Source of the DNA: a virus
Strand: one strand, 5' to 3'
IMG/VR virus record: IMGVR_UViG_3300047496_000120
Span: 1-34,937 of that record
DNA length: 34,937 bases
The notes under the pieces were generated by a model. It worked only from the letters and a program-made list of their open reading frames with translations. It did not search any database and had not been told where the DNA came from. How positions within the stretch are numbered: position 1 is the stretch's first letter; each line of letters begins with the position of its first letter. The translations under genes and the position numbers were made by a program. Positions 2,394-5,020 of this stretch are shown piece by piece.

Positions 2394-4820
2394 TCAGTAT
2401 GTAGGTTTTTGAAATACTGAAGCAAAGGTAGACGTTTGACCATACCGTGCTTCATTAAATCGTTGATCAAGTTCCTTAGAGCTTAGCCCATCTTTTGTCT
2501 TAGGTAAAGATACGCACAAATAACGAAAACTATCTGCAAAATGAGACGACCAATCATGTAGGGGAGTAGATTTGTAATTTTGTCTTTTTTGGTCGTATTC
2601 GTAGCGATAATTTTCAAGACACTTAATAAGCCTGGCACATTTCTTCTCATCTATCCAAACCTTTGGTAGTGTAGACCGACATGCTTCTATACCGTCCTGT
2701 AAACTGAAATCATCGGCTGTAGTAAACTTAAGCCCTAATTGCCGCGCTTTTTCTATACGTGTTATACCTGAACCAAACTCTTGAACTGCAATATCATGTG
2801 GTGCAATATGTTTACCATAGGTATATGGTTTAGATTGCAAAATATTCACGTAATGTTCAAGGCCTTCTCGGTTCTTTTCATAGCAATCTATTATGCGCAC
2901 AGACCCAGAAATATGCTGCCAAAAAATGATCGAAGTCATATCTGCAACGCCAATATCCCAACTGGTATGTACCTTATGTGCCGGCTCCCAATTAATCTGT
3001 CCTATTTGTCCATTAAGATTCATCTTATCTATATAGGACATATATACTGATCCAGTAACACCAAGATCCCAACTAGTCCAATATTCTTGTTGTGCCATTT
3101 CCCAGCTCATCTCGCCATTATCAATCTCTTCTTGGATCATCTGTGGATCAATATGCTGAGTATCATCAAGGGTTAGTTTTGAGGTATACCAACTTGGTGT
3201 ACGTTCAGCTATCTTAAACAGATCATAGAGATGGTTCTTGCCACGTGGTGTACTGCAAAATATACTCCATCCGCCGTTTGCTAATAACACGGGACGGAAG
3301 AACTGGTAACAAGCTGGATTCTGTAACGAGTACTCGCTGTAAATAATGCCCCGCGGATTTGTGCCTACAAGTGAATCGATATTTTCACTACCGCATATCT
3401 GGATAATGCTGGAGTTTTTAAGTCGTATTTTCATTTCTTGTGAATTGAGCGATTCGATCCATGACTTGGGAACATAATCCAGAAATCGATGTCCTTCAAT
3501 AGTAATGGAATCCCAGATACATTTCTTTCCCTGTGCATAGGTAGGAAATATATAGAAATAAACCCCCTTATGATTGATAGCTTGGTTAATCATTATGTTA
3601 AATGCACAAATATCCTTACCACTATTATGTACTAGATAGCCATTTGCTACAAAGTTGCCATAGGTAGTTGTTTCTAGATCATATAGTTCTTCATCGGGAT
3701 TGTCTTTTATGTCTACTTTGCTTCTAAAACAGCCTTTAACTATTTTGGTTGATCGTTTGCTTGCTTCTATTTTCGAATATGCAGATTGTTGAGCTTCTTG
3801 TTTACCATAAATTGGGCCACCATTTAATAACCGCTTAATAGCAGAGTTCTTGGATATCCTTATCTTCCAATTTGATGATTTTTCATTAAAGAGAACATGG
3901 GGAACTATACCCATCTTACGTAATAACCAATAATAATCCCAAGCCATATCGTATGATTGACCTACGCTTATAGTAATTTCAGTTGCCGGAGGTATTTTTC
4001 GTAAACCTCGTTTAGGATCAATCGTTTCGAATCCTTGTTTCTGCGAATATATATTACCATCTGATGAGATAACTGCAGCAAAGAACCTCAACAATGATAT
4101 TTCATCAAAGTCCCATATAATGGGATTTAATCTCCTCTTACTTTTGGGTTTATCTAAACCATCTTTCCCAAATAGATCTTTTATTTTATTTAAAATATAA
4201 CCACCATCTTTAGTGCCATTGATGAATTCCAGATCATAACCATTTCCTTTTGGTCGCCAAAGTAGAATATAACCAAATAACTTATGGGATAAAAAGGCTA
4301 CACGATCAAGTATTTCTTTATTGGTGTTCGTAAACTTAGGTTGTTGGTATCCTGAAACGTAACCATCACATATCATATATCCTAGAAATTCAGCTAGATC
4401 AGGACTGTGTTCTTTTCCTAGTGGGATTCCAGCATAATTAAGTAAATAGTTATACTCAGTTAATTCACTAACTTTTCTCCAATAAACAATATCACTATCA
4501 TAACGCATATAAGCAAATTGATGGTCATCTGAAGCAATAATGGGAAGATAGCCATTAGATTTAATATGTTTAGTTTGTTTAGTTTCAGTTTTCCAAACAT
4601 CTTTAACGATATCTACAACAAACTGATTCCCATTCCATGAAAGTATTTTATCGCCTGCTTGAATATCTTTTAATAGTTTATGTGAGCCATTTTCAAGCAA
4701 TATATGGGTATTACCAGATAAACATCGCCGCGGCCACACCGTGATGGCTTTGCGTATATTTCTCTGTTCAATTGCTTCGATCAAATCTACTTGATATGGT
4801 CGTGCTTCAAATGCTAACAT
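2394..4820 (-). CDS. terL: Terminase large subunit, interrupted by an intein
   Basis: 808-residue precursor. Removal of residues 33-399 (an intein) leaves a 441-residue terminase: an ATPase that drives DNA into the prohead plus a nuclease that cuts the concatemer. In the spliced protein the Walker A motif reads PRRSGKD (about residues 30-36), rebuilt exactly across the splice point. Downstream are a Walker B-like GIIYSEYS (about 123-130), a coupling motif FCSTPRGK (about 154-161), and nuclease-domain signatures SWDIGVADMTS and a C-terminal HDWSSHFADSFRY carrying the expected acidic residues. The start is 2 bases after the stop of the upstream RHH gene. Without splicing the P-loop is broken, so packaging should depend on intein excision. 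Confidence 0.93.
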   Translation of the reverse strand: MLAFEARPYQVDLIEAIEQRNIRKAITVWPRRCLSGNTHILLENGSHKLLKDIQAGDKILSWNGNQFVVDIVKDVWKTETKQTKHIKSNGYLPIIASDDHQFAYMRYDSDIVYWRKVSELTEYNYLLNYAGIPLGKEHSPDLAEFLGYMICDGYVSGYQQPKFTNTNKEILDRVAFLSHKLFGYILLWRPKGNGYDLEFINGTKDGGYILNKIKDLFGKDGLDKPKSKRRLNPIIWDFDEISLLRFFAAVISSDGNIYSQKQGFETIDPKRGLRKIPPATEITISVGQSYDMAWDYYWLLRKMGIVPHVLFNEKSSNWKIRISKNSAIKRLLNGGPIYGKQEAQQSAYSKIEASKRSTKIVKGCFRSKVDIKDNPDEELYDLETTTYGNFVANGYLVHNSGKDICAFNIMINQAINHKGVYFYIFPTYAQGKKCIWDSITIEGHRFLDYVPKSWIESLNSQEMKIRLKNSSIIQICGSENIDSLVGTNPRGIIYSEYSLQNPACYQFFRPVLLANGGWSIFCSTPRGKNHLYDLFKIAERTPSWYTSKLTLDDTQHIDPQMIQEEIDNGEMSWEMAQQEYWTSWDLGVTGSVYMSYIDKMNLNGQIGQINWEPAHKVHTSWDIGVADMTSIIFWQHISGSVRIIDCYEKNREGLEHYVNILQSKPYTYGKHIAPHDIAVQEFGSGITRIEKARQLGLKFTTADDFSLQDGIEACRSTLPKVWIDEKKCARLIKCLENYRYEYDQKRQNYKSTPLHDWSSHFADSFRYLCVSLPKTKDGLSSKELDQRFNEARYGQTSTFASVFQKPTY
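3624..4724 (-). mobile_element. LAGLIDADG intein in the Walker A motif of the terminase
   Basis: 367 residues in frame inside the terminase. The N-terminal splicing block is CLSGNTHILL (Cys1) followed by IQAGDKILSW. The C-terminal end is TTTYGNFVANGYLVHN, with the penultimate His and terminal Asn, and the first extein residue after it is Ser (SGKD). Two dodecapeptide motifs of a LAGLIDADG homing endonuclease lie between the splicing blocks: LAEFLGYMICDGYVSG (intein residues ~111-126) and LLRFFAAVISSDGNIY (~211-226). Both keep the acidic residue at the catalytic position (CDG, SDG), so the endonuclease looks intact. Insertion is after Arg32 and before SGKD, a P-loop site typical of inteins. 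Everything needed for splicing and homing appears present. Confidence 0.95.
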
Positions 4821-4822
4821 GT

Positions 4823-5020
4823 TTAATCTATCGAATGCATTAAGCAGGGTGGAAGGGAACTTTTTTCATACTTTACAATAAGATCGTCAATTGCTTCAGT
4901 TGCCAATGAACGAACGGAACAATCAATATCATCAGCAAGATGTTTTAGTTTACGATAACTCTCTCTTGGAACGCGTACATTACATATATTTTCTGGATGA
5001 TCTACTGGTCTCTCAGACAT
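4823..5020 (-). CDS. Ribbon-helix-helix (Arc/CopG-like) small protein
   Basis: 65 residues. The core NICNVRVPRESYRKLKHLAD followed by a second helix SVRSLATEAIDDLI has the strand-helix-helix pattern of ribbon-helix-helix DNA-binding proteins, which bind as dimers through the beta strand (VRVPRES here). A strong GGGAG precedes the ATG at 5020. The stop is 2 bases before the terminase start, so the two are probably translated together. It may be a transcriptional regulator of the packaging operon. Its position just ahead of the large terminase also allows a packaging-related DNA-binding role, though it is far shorter than usual small terminases. Confidence 0.7.
   Translation of the reverse strand: MSERPVDHPENICNVRVPRESYRKLKHLADDIDCSVRSLATEAIDDLIVKYEKSSLPPCLMHSID

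Follow-up and report, generated by a model that had tools for sequence, protein, structure and literature searches.

A LAGLIDADG-bearing intein, probably a homing element, in the Walker A motif of a viral large terminase

Inteins in phage large terminases (TerL) have been characterized in mycobacteriophages: splicing was demonstrated in E. coli for five representatives, and two cleaved alleles that lack the intein (PMC5050341). Seven terminase insertion sites are listed in that study, all of them in the ATPase domain, and those in the P-loop lie at GK^T and one residue away. Like the intein described here, mycobacteriophage TerL1-a and TerL1-b are LAGLIDADG inteins within the Walker A motif of the large terminase (mBio 2016, PMC5050341), and TerL1-b was shown both to splice and to cut the inteinless allele. 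Another phage group, the crAss-like phages, also has TerL inteins, with two reported in one TerL (PMC7886860).

The locus studied here lies in an IMG/VR virus record of 34,937 bases, the whole of which is referred to as the window. Whereas TerL1-a sits between Lys and Thr (GK^T) and TerL1-b one residue away, the window intein is inserted at RR^SGKD in another TerL family, its junction preceding GK^T by three residues. It does not share the TerL1-a/b insertion position, as read directly from Baka and KLEB27-3. The Baka intein (GKG...HN^S), unlike that of the window, apparently lacks a Cys start. In the crAss-like TerL cr53_1 the junction follows ...VWGTGGDEG and is, in contrast to the window, outside the P-loop. 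The closest annotated phage intein by sequence, that in the TerL of Corynebacterium phage P1201 (21.6% over residues 1-325), is located in a P-loop, but in another TerL family, after the Lys and with Thr at +1 (KGSAK^C...HN^T). The same whole-chain architecture of a Hint domain and a LAGLIDADG endonuclease is found in the archaeal VMA inteins TliVMA and PhoVMA, in PI-PfuI and in PI-SceI (Z 25-30), although these share 16-23% identity with the window intein and reside in cellular genes, archaeal or from yeast. In openly accessible papers, we found no description of an intein at the RR^SGKD site. P-loop TerL inteins are already known; what is new here is the branch and the insertion position ahead of SGK, the latter absent from the accessible sources.

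The intein occupies residues 33-399 of an 808-aa ORF, inserted at WPRR^SGKD. It begins with Cys1 in CLSGNTHILLENG and ends in FVANGYLVHN, with a final Val-His-Asn followed by Ser+1 (Table 1). Translation reproduced exactly the coordinates, insertion site, 367-aa length and 441-aa product size given in the original prediction. The insert is flanked by AITVWPRR and SGKDICAF, and the joined exteins form a protein of 441 aa, which matches the PHROG terminase large subunit phrog_2 (6.8e-23) and 1062 phage records, with a top identity of 42% over 92% of the protein. In Walker B and motif III the TerL family profile matches P74-26 TerL and T4 gp17, the nuclease Asp residues are kept, and the gene adjoining terL encodes a P22-like portal (1.1e-66). 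Judged by homology, the 441-aa product is the large terminase. A 65-aa ORF (4823-5020, minus strand), which stops just ahead of terL, is weakly similar to Arc-like repressors and to phrog_15913, and possibly encodes a ribbon-helix-helix regulator or a small terminase.

Table 1. Features of the terL locus, with positions counted from the first base of the window.
Feature	Position	Strand	Basis
TerL precursor ORF, 808 aa, extein-intein-extein	2394..4820	-	ORF listing and translation; extein matches PHROG terminase and many phage TerLs
N-extein, 32 aa, C-terminal end ...VWPRR (first half of P-loop)	4725..4820	-	
C-extein, 409 aa plus stop, begins SGKD (second half of P-loop); Walker B, motif III, nuclease domain	2394..3623	-	
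Ser+1 G K D, completes Walker A RRSGKD once spliced	3612..3623	-	Ser+1 in 33/33 carriers examined
Intein, 367 aa, Hint splicing domain and LAGLIDADG endonuclease	3624..4724	-	HMMs, model, shared insertion site in 20 distinct full-length homologues
Splicing block A with Cys1 (CLSGNTHILLENG)	4686..4724	-	Cys1 invariant in 21 full-length inteins; TIGR01445
Splicing block B, S-D-D-H, residues 65-68, TxxH equivalent	4521..4532	-	His68 invariant (n=21)
LAGLIDADG motif 1 (PDLAEFLGYMICDGY), catalytic Asp120	4359..4403	-	Asp in 20/21; model helix 108-120
YQQPKFTN, just after LAGLIDADG motif 1	4326..4349	-	Invariant in 17-sequence alignment; model strand 130-133
LAGLIDADG motif 2 (LLRFFAAVISSDG), catalytic Asp222	4056..4094	-	Asp in 21/21; model helix 208-222
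Splicing blocks F and G, ending GYLVHN; Asp349, His366 and Asn367 present	3624..3689	-	
Block-F His position, Gly356	3657-3659	-	

Pfam Intein_splicing (8.9e-13) and LAGLIDADG_3 (8.9e-7) each scored above the curated cut-off, as did the NCBIfam intein_Nterm and intein_Cterm models. Cys1, His68, Asp349, His366, Asn367 and Asp222 are invariant in the window and in 20 distinct full-length relatives. An AlphaFold model of the intein, built on a 17-row alignment of the window and locus proteins, reached a pLDDT of 91.2 and a pTM of 0.90, and both LAGLIDADG motifs are borne on helices of this model. Over the whole chain (residues 1-367) the structure matches TliVMA (Z 30.2, 3.7 A over 319 residues), PI-PfuI (Z 26.4) and PI-SceI (Z 24.9), while its splicing halves match the Ssp DnaB, Npu DnaB and Mtu RecA inteins with Z about 20, that is, the Hint fold. 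Its motifs and its modeled fold mark the segment as a class-1-type cis-splicing intein with a two-motif LAGLIDADG endonuclease, and the two acidic motifs of the endonuclease agree with the original prediction. We infer that YQQPKFTN forms a DNA-contact strand of the endonuclease, touching its target DNA, the fixed P-loop sequence.

The Walker A motif of the window terminase ends in Asp (GKD, 3612-3614, minus strand), where Ser or Thr is usual, and its Walker B has Ser (SE, 3333-3338, minus strand), where Asp is usual. GKD is paired with SE or TE in 101 of 103 aligned relatives, and one other is gapped. The sole GKT relative among the 103, Pelagibacter phage HTVC010P, pairs it with DE. The two combinations, GKD/SE and GKT/DE, amount to a reciprocal exchange of the residues presumed to bind Mg2+. 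No report of a terminase with a GKD Walker A was found in openly accessible literature.

Relatives of the intein were gathered by profile searches of viral contigs, representing metagenomic viruses. In the same TerL family, 20 distinct full-length relatives with 42-60% identity have an identical codon junction (R^SGKD). The full-length inteins measure 359-369 aa, with the exception of one of 544 aa (L034). Besides these, the R^SGKD site holds ten distinct mini-inteins of 138-162 aa without endonuclease, and one decayed copy of 295 aa whose endonuclease is broken (L039, L042). Among the 80 closest TerLs returned, the P-loop was empty in 68, filled in four, and unclassified or truncated in eight, and the comparison with intein-free relatives revealed homologous TerLs that cleanly lack the segment. 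The +1 residue is Ser in all 33 carriers, as required by the splicing chemistry; the intein-free TerLs of the tree set have Ala (50) or Ser (14) at this position. Ser codons of both the TCN and AGY sets are used, in carriers and empty alleles alike. Among the relatives gathered, the P-loop intein had no pair of near-identical alleles of which one is filled and the other empty. A plasmid collection gave no match, and genome contigs returned remote matches only, at 21-24% over long stretches or as short C-terminal pieces. Distantly related inteins were also seen at the homologous pre-SGK junction in distant terminase families with canonical GKT/GKS P-loops, namely in L038 (RQ^SGKT), L046 (RQ^SGKS) and L055 (RR^SGKS).

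The intein and the terminase have different histories. Placing the intein label on the TerL tree takes 13 changes, and the pairwise identities of the inteins do not correlate with those of the exteins (Mantel r 0.08, p 0.30, n 21). For example, the TerLs of L015 and L018 are 79% identical and their inteins 49%, and the intein of L018 is sister to that of L032 (100/99). The intein nearest to that of the window is found in L003 (60% identity). Topology tests rejected an extein clade of the window and L003 (p 0.0004), as well as one of L018 and L032 (p 2e-6); holding the inteins of L015 and L018 together was weakly disfavored (AU test, p 0.08). Furthermore, the endonuclease is conserved above the splicing domain (mean pairwise identity 52.9% vs 46.7%), as expected if homing is under selection. 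Together, the uncoupled phylogenies and the more conserved endonuclease make an actively homing parasite likely, and the element looks like one that moves between phages. A dN/dS comparison of close pairs gave nothing to count, as the near-identical full-length inteins did not differ. HMMs, structure, exact empty-site alleles and phylogeny all support the original placement of an intein inside the Walker A motif of a terminase.

L004 (2826-4298) and L005 do not differ over the P-loop intein plus about 400 bp of flank, whereas the rest of the aligned stretch has diverged by 2.6%. This tract is only suggestive of co-conversion, which we do not claim because the aligned stretch holds a second mismatch-free tract of similar length.

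We consider it very probable that the 367-aa insert is a cis-splicing intein of class-1 type with a monomeric two-motif LAGLIDADG homing endonuclease, a mobile invader of the terL P-loop codons. Once the precursor is translated, its Hint domain (Cys1, block-B His68, Asn367, Ser+1) would splice the intein out, and the 441-aa TerL would form as RR is ligated to SGKD. In the unspliced precursor, the ATP-binding loop would be broken and DNA could not be packaged. Since the P-loop is split by the intein, the ATPase activity of the terminase should depend on splicing, which is in line with the original prediction. During a co-infection, the conserved P-loop sequence of terL alleles without the intein would be the cutting site of the endonuclease, and repair of the cut allele would copy the intein in. 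We infer splicing and allele cleavage by the window intein from its anatomy and from the demonstrated behavior of the mycobacteriophage TerL inteins; the conserved catalytic residues and the phylogenetic mobility likewise point toward DNA cleavage.

Alternatively, the intein could be kept as a regulator of packaging: conditional splicing, controlled through Cys1 or Cys332 by redox, temperature or metal, would delay TerL activity until late infection. The insertion in the catalytic P-loop, the nucleophilic Cys1 and the presence of Cys332 in 19 of the 21 full-length relatives would fit such a role, and a regulatory role of inteins has been proposed (PMC5050341). However, the close TerLs are mostly intein-free, the intein and host gene histories are uncoupled, several mini-inteins lack Cys332, and parasitism accounts for all observations without regulation, so that we regard a regulator as unlikely. 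The sensitivity of packaging to environmental conditions via splicing, which had been suggested originally, is possible but unsupported. Because of the sporadic distribution of the intein among the closest TerLs and the tree incongruence, a selfish homing element seems to us more likely than a regulator that the phage requires.

The block-F Asp and His are common in class 1 inteins, without being an absolute requirement. The block-F His, located before N-F, is present in 30 of 32 related inteins, and is replaced by Gly only in the window, L003 and L034. The original statement that all splicing signatures are present was thus slightly overstated: Cys1, His-Asn and Ser+1 are there, but the block-F His is replaced by Gly356. 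With Gly at this position, the Asn-cyclisation step may be slower. It could be argued from this rare replacement that the window copy is a decaying intein and a poor splicer, in which slowed C-terminal cleavage results in less TerL. Every other splicing residue is kept though, L003 shares the Gly and its intein is otherwise intact, and TerL is essential, so selection should purge a poor splicer; a decaying copy is, in our view, quite improbable. That the 367 residues are instead an unspliced domain of the mature terminase, as the uninterrupted reading frame would allow, is hardly conceivable for a Hint fold with Cys1, His-Asn and Ser+1 that splits the RR/SGKD of a motif intact in empty relatives and whose homologues at the same site vary from 369 to 138 aa, and this reading was rejected on the clean empty-site TerL relatives.

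In addition to the P-loop, four other sites in the terminase family carry inteins. Extra inteins were found upstream of Walker B (D^S[L/I]VG, in L039 and L049), in motif III (S^TPRG, in L003, L034, L041, L042 and L050), near the start of the nuclease domain (EY^CSF, in L017 and L028), and beside the last conserved nuclease Asp (SH..^[C/S]DA, in L028, L031 and L032). In L050, an intein starts at this last site and then the DNA ends. The NCBIfam intein domain models detected additional inteins above the cut-off in L028, L042 and L050, and below it in L032 and L017, and L049 was matched by models of intein-containing proteins only. Both L028 and L050 seem to have a TerL with three inteins, in the P-loop, at motif III or EY^CSF, and at SH^CDA. 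A clean presence/absence of the D^S[I/L]VG intein separates L039 (3886-5255) from L042 (936-1325), whose TerLs are 97.6-99% identical. At the P-loop +1 position of intein-free phages, Ser can be regarded as permissive and Ala as non-permissive. We tentatively raise the possibility that this terminase family is an intein sink, with five independent sites at or near catalytic motifs and up to three inteins per TerL, and with Ala at +1 possibly marking resistance alleles under intein pressure.

These inteins form a large branch of terminase inteins outside the actinophages, in which a single site is seen filled, decayed, reduced to a mini-intein or empty. The homing cycle, as well as the cost of and the resistance to P-loop invasion, thereby become testable within one gene family. 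For the window itself, the annotation is corrected, the functional terminase being the 441-aa spliced product. Moreover, the relatives with multiple inteins suggest that an essential packaging motor can rely on several splicing events.
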